Source: Bacteroidales bacterium
Lineage (GTDB): Bacteria > Bacteroidota > Bacteroidia > Bacteroidales > UBA1556
Assembly: GCA_023146135.1 (NCBI GenBank)
Contig: JAGLCR010000042.1
Location: 1 to 64,000, forward strand
Direction of reading: 5' to 3'
DNA: 64,000 nucleotides
The notes beneath the pieces were generated by a model, which searched no databases, had not been told where the DNA came from, and saw nothing but the letters and a program-made list of their open reading frames with translations. Position 1 is the first letter of the stretch. Each line of letters begins with the position of its first letter. Below are positions 5,750 to 32,188 of this stretch, piece by piece. A program made the position numbers and the translations under genes.

Positions 5750-6976
5750 ATGAATAATAGAGTAGTAATAACTGGTATGGGAGTTTATTCCACCCTTGGA
5801 AAAAACCTGAAAGAAGTGAAGGATTCACTTTTTGAAGGCAAATCGGGTATAGGAATTGACCAGGAGCGAATAGATTTAGGATTTATTTCACCATTAACAG
5901 GTATTTTGGAAAGACCGAAATTAAAAGGTGTTCTTACAAGACGCCAACGAGTGGGTTTGCCTGTGCAAGGTGAATATGCTTATGTGGCAACTATGGAGGC
6001 ATTGGAAAATGCAAAGGTTGACACCCAATATCTTGAAGATAATGAGGTGGGCATACTATATGGTAATGATAGTTCAGCAATACCCGTGATTGAAGCTGCT
6101 GATAAGATTAGAGAAAAAAAAGACACCAGGCTTGTGGGTTCAGGTTCAATTTTTCAGTCCATGAACTCTACAGTGAGTATGAACTTGTCTGTTATATTAA
6201 AACTAAAAGGAATTAACTTTACTCTTAGTGGTGCTTGTGCCAGTGGTTCACATGCCATTGGAATTGGTTATATCATGATTAAGCAAGGCTTACAAGATAT
6301 GATTATTTGTGGTGGTGCTCAGGAAATCAATGCCTTTTCAATGGGTAGTTTTGATGGTATTGGAGCATTTTCAAAAAAGATTGATGAGCCAAAAAAAGCC
6401 TCCAAACCTTTTGATAAGAATCGTGATGGTTTAGTACCTTCGGGTGGTGGTGCTTCATTGATATTGGAAAGCTACGAATCAGCGATAAAACGTGGAGCGC
6501 CTATTCTTGCTGAAGTTAAAGGTTATGGTTTTTCCTCCAATGGTGATCATATTTCGGTACCCAATGTGAATGGGCTTGTACGTTCGATTAATAAAGCATT
6601 TAAGGATTCGGGTTTGAAACCAGAAGATATCGATTATATTAATGCTCATGCTACTTCTACTCCTGTTGGCGACAATAATGAAGCAGAGGCTTTAGCACAT
6701 TTTTTTGAAAAGTTAAAAACTCCTGTGAGTTCTACAAAATCTATGTCGGGTCATGAGATGTGGATGGGTGGTGCAAGCGAGGTTATTTATTCTTTGTTAA
6801 TGGCTCAGAACTCATTTATTGCTCCAAACATTAACTTTGATGAGCCTGACGAACAATCGGCTCGACTGAATATTATTAATAAGACGACCAAAAAGGTGAT
6901 TAATACTTTCCTAAGTAATTCATTTGGCTTTGGAGGAACAAATTCAACATTAATAATTAAGAAACTCGATGAGTAA
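5750..6976 (+). CDS. Beta-ketoacyl-ACP synthase (FabF/KASII type)
   Basis: Active-site Cys in GACASGSHA, His in NAHATSTP and SGHEMWMGG, C-terminal SFGFGGTN. Confidence 0.9.
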   Translation: MNNRVVITGMGVYSTLGKNLKEVKDSLFEGKSGIGIDQERIDLGFISPLTGILERPKLKGVLTRRQRVGLPVQGEYAYVATMEALENAKVDTQYLEDNEVGILYGNDSSAIPVIEAADKIREKKDTRLVGSGSIFQSMNSTVSMNLSVILKLKGINFTLSGACASGSHAIGIGYIMIKQGLQDMIICGGAQEINAFSMGSFDGIGAFSKKIDEPKKASKPFDKNRDGLVPSGGGASLILESYESAIKRGAPILAEVKGYGFSSNGDHISVPNVNGLVRSINKAFKDSGLKPEDIDYINAHATSTPVGDNNEAEALAHFFEKLKTPVSSTKSMSGHEMWMGGASEVIYSLLMAQNSFIAPNINFDEPDEQSARLNIINKTTKKVINTFLSNSFGFGGTNSTLIIKKLDE

Positions 6977-7409
6977 AATTGGCGAAGAAGCCACGGGCCT
7001 TATCTGTGAGACGGAATTGAATATTCGGTTTAGTGATACCGATGCTATGGGAATTGTGTGGCATGGTAACTATATTAAATATATGGAGGATGGCCGTGAA
7101 GCTTGGGGTGCTGAACATGGATTAAGTTATCTTGATATTTATAAAAACAAGCTGTTCACACCAATTGTTGAAGCAAAACTTAGTCATAAGCGTACACTTA
7201 AATTTGGTGATACCGCTATTATTATTACCCGCTATATTAATACACCTGCTGCAAAGCTAGTTTACGATTATGAGATTTATCGCAAGTCAGATATGATGTT
7301 AGTTCTAAAAGGGCGTACCGTTCAGGTTTTTACCGATTATCAAGAAAACCTTATACTTAATACACCAACTTGCGTTGTAGATTGGAAGCGTAATAAAGGA
7401 TTATTGTAG
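6969..7409 (+). CDS. Acyl-CoA/ACP thioesterase (4HBT hotdog fold)
   Basis: FSDTDAMGIVWHGNYIKYMEDGREAWG motif. Confidence 0.85.
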   Translation: MSKIGEEATGLICETELNIRFSDTDAMGIVWHGNYIKYMEDGREAWGAEHGLSYLDIYKNKLFTPIVEAKLSHKRTLKFGDTAIIITRYINTPAAKLVYDYEIYRKSDMMLVLKGRTVQVFTDYQENLILNTPTCVVDWKRNKGLL

Positions 7410-8543
7410 ATGCGTAAAGTTTATATACAGAGCGATAATATAGTGAGCTCATTGGGAATAACTTCAGAAGAGAACTTTAATGCACTTGTGGATAATAGCA
7501 CTGGTGTAAAAATGAATTATACAGGAAATATTTATAAAGAATTGCCTCTTTCATTAATTGATAAAGAGGCTTTTATTAAAAAATCAGAATCATCAATAAG
7601 GAACTTTCAATCATACACCTTCTTTGAGCAAATCATGATATGGTCGGCTGTTGATGCCTTATCAAAAGTAAATATTGATGCAAGTAGCGACCGTACGATT
7701 TTTGTAATTTCCACTACAAAGGGAAATATCGATAATTTGAAAACAAAAGAAGGACGTCAGTCTGACAATTATAAACTTTGGTATTCTGCAAAAAGAGTAT
7801 GCGATTATTTTTCAAATAATAATGAAGCTGTTGTGGTTTCCAATGCCTGTGTTTCGGGTGTTATGGCCGTAAATACAGCAGCACAATTGTTGCAAACAGG
7901 TGCTTTTGATCATGCAGTAGTTATTGGGGCCGATGTGGTTTCAGATTTTGTTATTGCGGGTTTTATGTCGTTTATGGCTTTAAGCCCTAAGCCTTGCAAA
8001 CCTTTTGATGATAATCGTGATGGATTATCATTAGGAGAAGCTGCTGGTTGCTTGGTTTTAAGTACAGAAGAGCATTCAGATATCGCGATTATTGGAGGTG
8101 CAAATGCCAATGATGCTAATCATATTTCGGGTCCTTCGCGCACGGCCGAAGGCTTGTATTTGGCCATTGAAAGCTCAATGAAAGAGGCTAGAATAACAGC
8201 TTCGGATATTGATTATGTTTCAGCTCATGGCACGGCAACTATGTATAATGATGAGATGGAGTCCATTGCCTTAAATAGACATGGATTGCAGCAAACGCCA
8301 GTGAATAGCTTCAAAGGATATTGGGGGCACACATTGGGGGCTTCAGGTATTATCGAGATTGTAGCATCTATCAAGTCCATGGAAAATAAGCTGTTGATTA
8401 AGTCATTGGGTTTTGATGAAAAAAACAATGGAGAACAAATTAATGTAATTAGTAAGAATATTACAAAAGAAGTAAATATCGTGTTGAAAACAGCAGCAGG
8501 CTTTGGTGGAGCTAACTCATCTATTATTCTAAAAAAATATTAG
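7410..8543 (+). CDS. Beta-ketoacyl-ACP synthase
   Basis: NACVSGVMAVN (Cys), SAHGTAT, GHTLGASG, AAGFGGANSS. Confidence 0.88.
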   Translation: MRKVYIQSDNIVSSLGITSEENFNALVDNSTGVKMNYTGNIYKELPLSLIDKEAFIKKSESSIRNFQSYTFFEQIMIWSAVDALSKVNIDASSDRTIFVISTTKGNIDNLKTKEGRQSDNYKLWYSAKRVCDYFSNNNEAVVVSNACVSGVMAVNTAAQLLQTGAFDHAVVIGADVVSDFVIAGFMSFMALSPKPCKPFDDNRDGLSLGEAAGCLVLSTEEHSDIAIIGGANANDANHISGPSRTAEGLYLAIESSMKEARITASDIDYVSAHGTATMYNDEMESIALNRHGLQQTPVNSFKGYWGHTLGASGIIEIVASIKSMENKLLIKSLGFDEKNNGEQINVISKNITKEVNIVLKTAAGFGGANSSIILKKY

Positions 8544-8545
8544 CT

Positions 8546-9166
8546 ATGGGAGTGGAGGTAGTTTCATATATTAGGATAAAAGACCATAAGGCATGGATAA
8601 ATGGTGAGGCATTAAACCTTGACTTTTCAGCTATGTCATTTTTAAAAGCTATTTATAAGGATTTAGGTTTAAAATATCCCAAATTCTATAAAATGGATGA
8701 GCTAAGTAAGTTGGGTTTTATCGCTAGCGAAATGCTGTTACAAAATAATAATGTTAAGTCTATTATAAACGATTTTAAACAAGATAAAATTGGAGTAATA
8801 CTTCAAAATTCGGACTCAACAATAGATGTAGATAGTAATTTTTACGATTCGATACTAGATGAGCAAAAGCACTTTCCCAGTCCTGCATTATTTGTGTATA
8901 CTTTGCCAAATATTGTATTAGGGGAGATCTCGATTCGCAATAAATTCAAGGGGGAGAATGCATTATTTGTATTTCAAAAGTATAATATGACTTTTGGCGT
9001 AGATTATATTAACTCCTTATTTGAAAACAATAAAATAGAAGCTTGTGTTGGTGGCTGGTTTAATGCTAATAGTGAAAACTATGATGCATTTTTGTATTTT
9101 GCAAAAGGCACAAACAAACAAGAAAATGCACATACAGTAGATAATATTTCAAAAATATATAAATAA
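8546..9166 (+). CDS. Short ketosynthase-like (half-length) protein of the polyene cluster
   Basis: 206 aa; pattern 'FPSPALFVYTLPNIVLGEISIRNKFKGENALFVFQK' resembles the KS N-terminal half with the nucleophile-Cys region replaced. Confidence 0.5.
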   Translation: MGVEVVSYIRIKDHKAWINGEALNLDFSAMSFLKAIYKDLGLKYPKFYKMDELSKLGFIASEMLLQNNNVKSIINDFKQDKIGVILQNSDSTIDVDSNFYDSILDEQKHFPSPALFVYTLPNIVLGEISIRNKFKGENALFVFQKYNMTFGVDYINSLFENNKIEACVGGWFNANSENYDAFLYFAKGTNKQENAHTVDNISKIYK

Positions 9167-9420
9167 TGGAAGAATTAAAGAATAAACTTAAAGCGCAGAT
9201 TATTGAAGCCTTAAATTTAGAAGATGTTGAAGTAGAAGATATTAGTAATTCGGATGCGCTTTTTGGTGATGGACTTGGTTTGGATTCTATTGATGCTTTG
9301 GAGCTAATAGTATTATTAGAGCGTGAGTATGGTATCAAGATGGATGATGCAGCTGAAGGTAAAACTATTTTGCAAAGCGTAAATTCTATGGCGGAGTATA
9401 TTCAGTTGAAGAAGGCTTAA
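9166..9420 (+). CDS. Acyl carrier protein
   Basis: GLGLDSIDALELIVLLE phosphopantetheine Ser motif; 84 aa. Confidence 0.92.
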   Translation: MEELKNKLKAQIIEALNLEDVEVEDISNSDALFGDGLGLDSIDALELIVLLEREYGIKMDDAAEGKTILQSVNSMAEYIQLKKA

Positions 9421-28845: not shown

Positions 28846-28900
28846 AAAAAAGCCTGCATATCAATGATATACAGGCTTGTAAAATTGTATTTGTGATCCA
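28846..28900. repeat. Left copy of 55-bp perfect direct repeat (tRNA-Arg 3' end + terminator)
   Basis: AAAAAAGCCTGCATATCAATGATATACAGGCTTGTAAAATTGTATTTGTGATCCA, identical to 30874-30928. Confidence 0.95.
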
Positions 28901-29088
28901 TGCTGGGCTTCTAAATATCGCCTTTATGTCATGAATATCAGTATATTACAAGTATAAAAATTCGTGGGCAGGCTGTTTTTCAGATGTTTTTTTGCACTCA
29001 AAGGCCTTGTTTTGCACCAACTTTCTCCTACATATAAATGTTTAGTGTTTTGTATATGAAAAGTGATATAGAATTGAAATGCATATAA

Positions 29089-29139
29089 ATGTACTATAAT
29101 ACAGACATATTAAGTATATTTGCAAATAATATAGTACAT
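29089..29139 (+). promoter_or_regulatory. hipBA promoter with flanking inverted-repeat operator
   Basis: ATGTACTATA (29089-29098) and TATAGTACAT (29130-29139) flank the TATATTTG -7 box (29115-29122); a further TATAGTA at 29149-29155. Confidence 0.6.
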
Positions 29140-29155
29140 AAATAATTATATAGTA

Positions 29156-29449
29156 ATGAAGTTAAAGAAGCAAATTGTATTCCCAAAGCATCAAAAGATA
29201 TTAAATCTTATGGGAGAAAATATAAAGCTTGCAAGGAAGAGACGAAAGCTGACAGCGGTGCAAGTAGCTGAGCGAGCTCGTATTTCAAGGAATACGCTAT
29301 ATTTACTAGAGAAAGGCAGTTCGAGTGTATCTATTGGTGCTTTATTTAATGTGTTAAGAGTATTAAACCTGCAAGATGATTTTCTAAAATTGGCTGCTGA
29401 TGATGAGCTTGGAAGAAAGTTGCAAGATATAGAACTAATGGGAAAATAG
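29156..29449 (+). CDS. hipB: HipB-like XRE antitoxin
   Basis: HTH (LARKRRKLTAVQVAERARISRNTLYLLEKG) directly upstream of hipA. Confidence 0.85.
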   Translation: MKLKKQIVFPKHQKILNLMGENIKLARKRRKLTAVQVAERARISRNTLYLLEKGSSSVSIGALFNVLRVLNLQDDFLKLAADDELGRKLQDIELMGK

Positions 29450-29450
29450 C

Positions 29451-30701
29451 ATGGCAAAAAAACACGATATATATGTTTATGCACATTGGCTTGGAATGTC
29501 AGAGCCTATGTTGATGGGGCTTTTGGAGGCTCAATCGATTAAGGGTAAAATGTCTTATAGTTTTGAGTATGATAGAATGTGGTTGCAATCAAATGAACAA
29601 TTTCTATTAGATCCAGATATTAGTTGGTTTTCTGGAAAGCAATATCCAGATGCCAAGGGTAATTTTGGTTTATTCTTGGATTCGATGCCTGATACTTGGG
29701 GGAGGACTTTGATGAAAAGGCGAGCTGCCGTTCATGCAAAGGTAAATGATAATAAGTTAGTTTCATTAAATGAAGTAGATTTCTTATTGGGAGTGTATGA
29801 CGAAAGTAGAATGGGGGCACTTCGGTTTAAGACGAATAAGCAAGGCCCCTTTTTAGATAGTAGTCAGGAGTTTCCAACTCCACCTTGGACATCAGTAAGA
29901 AAATTGCAGCATAGTGCAAAAATGCTTGATTCGCATACTGATGATAAAAGTATTATGGATTTTCTTAAAGTTATTATGGCACCAGGATCTTCACTTGGAG
30001 GCGCACGGCCAAAGGCTAATATCTTAGATGACAATCAGCATCCTTGGATTGCTAAATTTCCTGCAAAAAATGATACTATTAATATGGCTTTATGGGAAAT
30101 GTTAGCCTATAAACTTGCAATAAAGTCAGGTGTGTGGATGGCAGAATCAAAGTGCGAAAAAGTGTCGGGACACCATCACACTTTTTTTACTAAAAGGTTT
30201 GACCGTTTGCAGGGGGAACGAATCCATTTTGCATCGGCAATGAGCATGACAGGACACTCAGAAGATGATTTGAGAGACGATGTTGCTAGTTACCTAGAGT
30301 TGGCGGAATTTCTACAGTTTGCAGGGTCTAATATCGAAGAAGATTTGCATCAACTCTGGAGAAGAATTGTTTTTAGTATTGCTATTTCAAGTACGGATGA
30401 TCATTTGAGAAACCATGGTTTTCTATTGGAGCAGAAAGGTTGGAGATTGTCTCCCGCTTATGATTTGAATCCATCTGTTGATAAAGAAGGTTTAGCACTT
30501 AATATTGACATGGATAGTAATGCATTAGATTTTGATTTAGCAAAAAGTGTTGGAGAATACTTTTTATTAGATAAAGTGGCCATGAATGAAATTATTAAAG
30601 AAGTATGCACAGTAGTGAGTTGTTGGGAAAGTGAAGCCAAGAACATAGGAATTTCAAGAAACGAAATTCAGATGATGGAATCAGCTTTTCGTTGGGTATA
30701 A
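29451..30701 (+). CDS. hipA: HipA-family Ser/Thr kinase toxin
   Basis: PGSSLGGARPKANI, STDDHLRNHGFLL, LSPAYDLNPS. Confidence 0.92.
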   Translation: MAKKHDIYVYAHWLGMSEPMLMGLLEAQSIKGKMSYSFEYDRMWLQSNEQFLLDPDISWFSGKQYPDAKGNFGLFLDSMPDTWGRTLMKRRAAVHAKVNDNKLVSLNEVDFLLGVYDESRMGALRFKTNKQGPFLDSSQEFPTPPWTSVRKLQHSAKMLDSHTDDKSIMDFLKVIMAPGSSLGGARPKANILDDNQHPWIAKFPAKNDTINMALWEMLAYKLAIKSGVWMAESKCEKVSGHHHTFFTKRFDRLQGERIHFASAMSMTGHSEDDLRDDVASYLELAEFLQFAGSNIEEDLHQLWRRIVFSIAISSTDDHLRNHGFLLEQKGWRLSPAYDLNPSVDKEGLALNIDMDSNALDFDLAKSVGEYFLLDKVAMNEIIKEVCTVVSCWESEAKNIGISRNEIQMMESAFRWV

Positions 30702-30873
30702 TCCTCCTGTTGTGTTGAAAAAAGTTAATTCACTAAAAAAACATGTCTAGTAAACTAAGCAATAAACTGGATATTATATTGTGGTTTTAGTTAACTACTG
30801 CTGTGTAAGTGATAGATAATATTGATAATACATTTTGTGGCACTAGCATCCGAAACTTTTTCAATATTTCCTA

Positions 30874-30908
30874 AAAAAAGCCTGCATATCAATGATATAC
30901 AGGCTTGT
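30874..30908 (-). terminator. Rho-independent terminator after tRNA-Arg
   Basis: Minus strand AAGCCTGTATATCATTGATATGCAGGCTTTTTT stem-loop plus T-run. Confidence 0.8.
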
Positions 30909-30928
30909 AAAATTGTATTTGTGATCCA
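30874..30928. repeat. Right copy of 55-bp perfect direct repeat overlapping the tRNA-Arg 3' end
   Basis: Identical to 28846-28900. Confidence 0.95.
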
Positions 30929-30995
30929 GGCGGGATTCGAACCCACGACCCGCAGCTTAGAAGGCTGCTGCTCTATCCAGCTGAGCTACTGGACC
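30922..30995 (-). tRNA. tRNA-Arg(TCT)
   Basis: Cloverleaf readable on minus strand: GGTCCAG...CTTCTAA anticodon loop...GGTTCGAATCC...CTGGATC-A. Confidence 0.95.
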
Positions 30996-31051: not shown

Positions 31052-31057
31052 ATAGTG

Positions 31058-31132
31058 TCGGGGTGGCAGGATTCGAACCTGCGGCCCCCTGCTCCCAAAG
31101 CAGGTGCGCTAACCGGACTGCGCCACACCCCG
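31058..31132 (-). tRNA. tRNA-Pro(TGG)
   Basis: Minus strand CGGGGTG...CTTTGGGAG anticodon loop...GGTTCGAATCC...CACCCCG-A. Confidence 0.95.
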
Positions 31133-32090: not shown

Positions 32091-32188
32091 TTATCTCGGT
32101 CATTGAGCTTGTGTTATCTCGGTCACTGAGCTTGTTGTCTTGGTCACTGGGCTTGTTAAATTTGTCACTGAGCTTGTCGAAGTGCGAC
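32091..32188. repeat. Four tandem ~22-bp GGTCACTGAGCTTGT units
   Basis: GGTCATTGAGCTTGT / GGTCACTGAGCTTGT / GGTCACTGGGCTTGT / TGTCACTGAGCTTGTCGAAGTG read directly. Confidence 0.85.

Follow-up and report, generated by a model that had tools for sequence, protein, structure and literature searches.

Toxin-antitoxin modules spread sideways between genomes, and the route by which stand-alone chromosomal modules travel is usually left open. Among the described elements closest to the locus reported here, CIMEs are known in Firmicutes. The Islander catalogue of tDNA genomic islands requires an integrase gene and a length of 2-200 kb, and shorter candidates are rejected (PMC4383910). In CIMEs, attL and attR are kept while the integration and transfer genes have been lost, and these elements are understood as decayed ICEs or IMEs (PMC5704250). 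The additive flexible genomic islands at tRNA-Lys of Methylophilaceae are bounded by repeats of the tRNA 3' end and have inserts of 330 bp to 42 kb with 1-63 genes (PMC10872708). Tycheposons (named in PMC10872708 and PMC11389934) are tRNA-anchored, cargo-bearing elements that measure 4-200 kb and have a tyrosine recombinase. One survey of hipBA modules makes no mention of direct repeats, tRNA genes or horizontal transfer (PMC8262856).

The window, which is the whole 64,000-nucleotide stretch of DNA that was analysed and a part of contig C37, contains a hipBA islet beside a tRNA-Arg gene. As in the Islander islands, there is an intact tRNA at one end, a displaced 3' fragment in the correct orientation at the other and sporadic DNA between them. 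However, the islet has no integrase gene, and its length is at the limit of that catalogue (28901-30928, 2028 bp copy to copy; 1973 bp between copies), with a sister islet in genome G397 falling below it. It resembles a CIME in having repeats at both ends that look att-like from their sequence and in having no integration or transfer genes, but it shows no trace of a larger element, and hipBA-sized units recur at unrelated targets. The repeats of the last tRNA nucleotides and the small variable inserts are shared with the Methylophilaceae islands, whereas those islands belong to another phylum and carry mixed cargo mostly of unknown function; the hipBA islets use one toxin-antitoxin family repeatedly, and their targets include the ends of protein genes. 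Tycheposons are likewise tRNA-anchored integrative elements with cargo, and the islet, at 2 kb and with no recombinase, lies outside that class. The genes themselves follow the plan of type II hipBA modules, in which an HTH antitoxin gene lies just upstream of a HipA_C kinase gene with a palindromic operator (PMC8262856). No paper describing bare hipBA islets was found in the open-access literature. The class may have been overlooked, as Islander-type surveys drop elements that have no integrase or are below 2 kb.

Anatomy of the islet

The islet is bounded by a 55-bp direct repeat, with the copies at 28846-28900 and 30874-30928 being 100% identical (55/55); when extended to 61 bp, the pair is 97% identical. 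The assembly searched (2.28 Mb in 84 contigs, metagenome-type, 70% complete) contains two copies of the 55-bp sequence, both at the islet (E 2e-31 and 3e-23). The features of the locus are as follows.

28846-28900, minus strand: distal repeat copy, consisting of the displaced tRNA-Arg 3' end (8 nt) and terminator, candidate attachment-site half (55/55 identity to 30874-30928; two copies in the genome)
28901-28914, minus strand: decayed likeness to a tRNA T-arm, just inside the distal copy (10/13 nt matched, one gap)
28901-29083, no strand assigned: left inner arm of the islet, without a gene, with a direct pair of TTTTGCAC at 28987-28997 and 29007-29017
29084-29144, plus strand: hipBA promoter/operator, an 18-nt inverted repeat TATAAATGTACTATAATA ... 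TAATATAGTACATAAATA, with similar elements in relatives
29156-29449, plus strand: hipB, 97-aa helix-turn-helix antitoxin (HTH_3, E 3e-9)
29451-30701, plus strand: hipA, 416-aa predicted HipA-fold Ser/Thr kinase toxin (HipA_C PF07804, E 3e-48)
30702-30873, no strand assigned: right inner arm between hipA and the tRNA-proximal repeat, without a gene
30874-30928, minus strand: tRNA-proximal repeat copy, consisting of the functional tRNA-Arg 3' end and terminator, candidate attachment-site half
30921-30995, minus strand: tRNA-Arg(TCT), intact, 3' end toward the islet (ARAGORN)
31057-31132, minus strand: tRNA-Pro(TGG), first gene of the tRNA unit shared with tRNA-Arg, upstream of it and in the same direction (ARAGORN)

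The repeat holds the last 8 nt of the predicted tRNA-Arg(TCT) followed by 47 bp that include the terminator stem GCCTG...CAGGC and a T run. The first-pass annotation, made from the sequence of the window, had described an exact repeat of the tRNA-Arg end and its terminator, and this stands with one correction, as the tRNA portion was given there as 7 nt. It had also stated that the duplication leaves the tRNA operon with an intact terminator, which is borne out by the stem and T run at 30874-30928; the tRNA is intact as well. The loose resemblance to the T-arm beyond the left copy, pointed out in the same annotation, was recovered and was matched by only 7 of 2000 random segments, therefore it is probably a real likeness. 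Inward of this stretch, no further tRNA likeness was detectable, with the local score being reached by 397 of 500 random segments. The islet does not stand out by GC content (35.2% versus 35.5%). The TTTTGCAC pair in the left inner arm could be an accessory binding site; it was not found in the islets of L131, L127 or L245. By eye, no sequence is common to the inner arms of this islet and those of the G397 islet.

The hipBA genes and their operator

By open reading frames and domain profiles, hipB and hipA were the only plausible genes between the repeat copies, and the same search of the islet found no integrase, transposase or recombinase, in agreement with the earlier claim that only these two genes and their operator lie there. 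HipB also matched the couple_hipB model TIGR03070 (E 4e-10), but under the cut-off of that model, and was 65-67% identical to its counterparts in L033 and L034. The motifs of HipA are intact, with the GSSLGGARPK-type loop, TDDHLRNHGF (TDDHxxNH) and LSPAxDxNP (PAxDxNP) being invariant among 16 relatives, and the HipA_C profile also matched PDB HipT/HipA_C chains. The hipB gene ends 1 nt before hipA in the same operon, so that an HTH gene lies directly upstream of the kinase gene. With this arrangement and a HipA_C domain with conserved motifs, the pair is assigned to the type II toxin-antitoxin HipBA systems, and the toxicity of HipA would be neutralised by HipB. Similar GTACTATATT...ATATAGTAC elements were present upstream of hipB in L115, L118 and L123.

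Related hipA genes in public records came from Pedobacter and a Sphingobacteriales MAG, and on this basis the host probably belongs to Bacteroidota. HipA was 64% identical to proteins of other families, versus 52% to the homologue in one genome of the same genus; this and its sporadic occurrence fit lateral acquisition. No close hipA relatives were found in viral contigs, and the homologues in phage and plasmid records were all below 60% identity.

The tRNA-Arg locus in relatives

The tRNA-Pro/tRNA-Arg pair was also present in 7 same-genus genomes, with terminators and downstream genes that differ from those of the window. No second copy of the tRNA-Arg 3' end was found in the same-genus genomes examined, in which several contigs stop about 250-400 bp past the tRNA. 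Both repeat copies in a relative without hipBA, which the first-pass annotation had named as evidence against its reading, were therefore not seen within that reach. The gene left of the islet is absent in the same-genus genomes or has only a distant homologue there, and because of this no exact empty site for the window locus was found among them.

Sister islets and their target genes

In G397 (locus L131), a hipBA islet of 1.86 kb (7175-9035) lies exactly between the 3' end of tRNA-Pro(CGG) and its terminator, and 16 nt of the tRNA end are repeated after hipBA, followed by the terminator. At this site the congener G073 has no hipBA; the same tRNA-Pro runs directly into the homologous terminator, and the tRNA end is present in a single copy. 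The comparison of this empty site with the filled one thus fixes the insertion point at the tRNA end. The fate of the terminator differs between the two islets, as the tRNA unit of the window keeps a terminator by means of the repeat whereas the tRNA of G397 lost its adjacent one.

The locus L272 (G617, 6175-9346) has a tRNA-Asp, then its 3' end and terminator four more times, a small GIY-YIG nuclease gene, hipBA and a 14-nt copy of the end. The GIY-YIG gene was in none of the other loci searched, and its nuclease could be another route for moving such islets.

Protein genes were also used as targets. In L245, hipBA lies at the 3' end of tex, and the differences between the two copies of this end fall on first (5), second (0) and third (11) codon positions, which indicates that one of the copies arrived from another lineage, where it had been a working gene end, and is not an in-place duplication. 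In L127 the target is a DEAD-box helicase gene, and the repeat of its 3' end includes the terminator. No empty site was found for L127 or L245, for which relatives have the target gene in common but not the downstream flank.

The loci L108, L034, L267, L277 and L143, with hipBA near a tRNA 3' end, were rejected as bracketed cases since they had no convincing repeat. In L034, from a Sphingobacteriales MAG, hipBA is 612 bp downstream of the 3' end of tRNA-Arg(CCT) with no detectable repeat; the order metG then tRNA-Arg(CCT) is common to this locus and to contig C78 of the window genome (G000).

A cassette-like array was observed in L118 and L123, both of genus g144, where a gene 3' end (...YEPYYWGAFVLVE) recurs several times with different small cargos between the copies, among them hipBA, two small ORFs that form a pair, and an ATPase-like gene.

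Bracketing of hipBA loci in the order and class

To place the locus in a wider context, 103 hipBA loci from the order and class, in mostly fragmented genomes, were scored as bracketed when a direct repeat with a score of at least 20 lay within 600 bp on either side of hipBA. In the first sample, 15 of 63 hipBA loci were bracketed, compared with 3 of 394 random windows. With the window left out, the count was 14/62 against 4/238 for gene units with intergenic edges (Fisher P 1e-7). In the replicate sample, 8 of 40 hipBA loci and 8 of 173 controls were bracketed, with five of these eight control cases coming from one locus.

Repeats enclosing at most 700 bp besides hipBA were found at 23 of the 103 loci, where 1.6 would be expected from random units on the same contigs, and the bracketed units are concentrated where the extra DNA amounts to 55-700 bp. 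At 1.2-8 kb of extra DNA there were 5 bracketed hipBA units versus about 9 expected, and larger units show no clear overall excess. Therefore, it is hipBA itself that is bracketed. In L115, L118 and L257, the repeats abut the operator or the stop codon of hipA.

The repeats range from 16 to 280 bp across the bracketed loci and have no common core, and the orientation of hipBA relative to the target varies between cases. In L114, L117 and L159, and probably in others, the brackets resemble dispersed intergenic repeats and not gene ends; the 23 loci are therefore not all of one kind, and the statistic mixes kinds of repeat. The effect may not be special to hipBA, as AbiEii toxin loci, taken as a second family, had repeats in 2 of 27 cases, which is not significantly fewer (P 0.06). 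For tRNAs near hipBA, the 3' end was toward hipBA in 16 of 18, and 7 of the 18, including two in the window, were within 750 bp (binomial P 0.005).

Origin of the islet

We consider the chances to be about evenly balanced that the islet is a minimal integrase-less element, with hipBA as its sole cargo, which inserted site-specifically at the 3' end of tRNA-Arg(TCT), probably by means of a recombinase acting in trans. The incoming DNA would have brought its own version of the tRNA 3' end with the terminator, and this copy would now complete the working tRNA-Arg, while the original 3' end and terminator would have been displaced to 28846-28900. Such an insertion would be an attachment-site recombination, most likely catalysed by the tyrosine recombinase of another element. 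As there is no recombinase on the islet, it would have either acted in trans or been lost. The att-like duplication proposed in the first-pass annotation is supported mostly by the parallel cases, that is, the excess of bracketed hipBA loci over controls and the empty site of the sister at tRNA-Pro, and less by the window locus alone, where an exact empty site is lacking. That annotation had left three origins open: a relic, a cargo mobilised in trans and a decayed tandem tRNA.

Toxin-antitoxin modules hold DNA in place by addiction. HipB would repress the operon and neutralise HipA, and loss of the islet, for example by excision, would free the HipA kinase and stop growth, so that the islet would be kept in place. 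Similar bracketing in dozens of related bacteria suggests that this toxin pair could be inserted into genomes without an integration enzyme of its own. More tentatively, hipBA could be a mobile unit throughout the class, of 1.6-2.1 kb and without a recombinase, which goes repeatedly into the 3' ends of tRNA genes and protein genes, leaves the target end restored, is moved by recombinases acting in trans and is held by its own toxicity.

The main rival, which we regard as doubtful, is that an integrative element with its own integrase entered tRNA-Arg and then lost everything except hipBA, leaving both att sites as in a very small CIME. The same att signature is present here as in CIMEs, which are defined as keeping attL and attR after the loss of their integration and transfer genes (PMC5704250), and toxin-antitoxin genes would be expected to be the last to go, as their loss is harmful. 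However, step-wise erosion in many lineages should leave intermediates; bracketed units with 1.2-8 kb of extra DNA are in no clear excess, and this missing tail weakens the explanation and leans away from it. The repeats that abut the operator or the hipA stop codon in several loci also speak against it, as does the window islet with no remnant ORFs.

Recombination could also have occurred without any integrase, if DNA carrying hipBA and a stretch homologous to the target entered by homologous recombination, either as a Campbell-type single crossover of a circle or by uptake of a fragment. The wide range of repeat lengths with no common core, the dispersed repeats that also act as brackets, the unfixed orientation and the tex copy derived from another lineage could all be accounted for in this way, but homologous recombination would be inefficient over an end as short as the 16 bp shared in G397, and the tRNAs near hipBA nearly always present their 3' end, which is the side used by tyrosine integrases. 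We therefore consider this route improbable. Least probable of all, in our judgement, is that the tRNA-Arg 3' end and terminator, or a whole tRNA that then decayed, were duplicated before hipBA landed between the copies. Tandem copies of a tRNA 3' end without cargo do occur in the same genome, at tRNA-Leu(GAG), and the tRNA-Asp array of L272 is comparable. Against this, the likeness left by a full ancestral tRNA beside a perfect 55-bp stretch should exceed 13 nt, and the lack of further tRNA similarity leans away from a decayed full tRNA; the same-genus genomes have a single copy, and the G397/G073 pair provides a one-copy site without hipBA.

If hipBA moves as bare att-flanked islets, this would give a concrete and testable route for stand-alone toxin-antitoxin modules, and there may be a class of very small elements without an integrase that standard island finders drop. 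In that case hipBA would be a natural stabiliser of an attachment site, and both empty and filled sites are predicted within one species.

Other loci in the genome and the window

The first-pass annotation had proposed a search of the genome for a tyrosine integrase and for further tRNA-end repeats around small cargos. One mobile-type tyrosine recombinase was detected in the assembly, on contig C35 (L298:5216-12830) and not in the islet. Next to it are a gene for a type IIG restriction-modification enzyme and the 3' end of a helicase gene of the DEAD-box type, which is the same kind of target as that of the L127 hipBA islet. No flanking repeat was found at this recombinase locus, and a link between it and the islet is a conjecture.

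Repeats of tRNA ends were checked around the 16 tRNAs found in G000. On contig C78 (L287:6441-8010), a 15-nt stretch that runs across the 3' end of tRNA-Arg(CCT) into the beginning of its terminator is found again 1.47 kb downstream, at L287:7983-7997, where the copy precedes a similar terminator. A 238-aa ORF lies between the copies, and this could be a second tRNA-end islet of the genome. On contig C17 (L297:15747-16109), tRNA-Leu(GAG) has about three 93-bp units in tandem behind it, with no cargo. Each unit holds the last 17-18 nt of the tRNA, the terminator and a short hairpin, making this an empty array of tRNA ends.

In the window, four imperfect tandem copies of a 21-23-nt TTATCTCGGTCATTGAGCTTGT unit lie at 32091-32177, beside a short-chain dehydrogenase gene. 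A large cluster at 3440-27667, which ends just left of the islet, encodes an ammonia-lyase-like enzyme, several ketosynthases, a ketoreductase, an acyl carrier protein, acyltransferases and an exporter-like protein, and it resembles an aryl-polyene/flexirubin-type pigment cluster.
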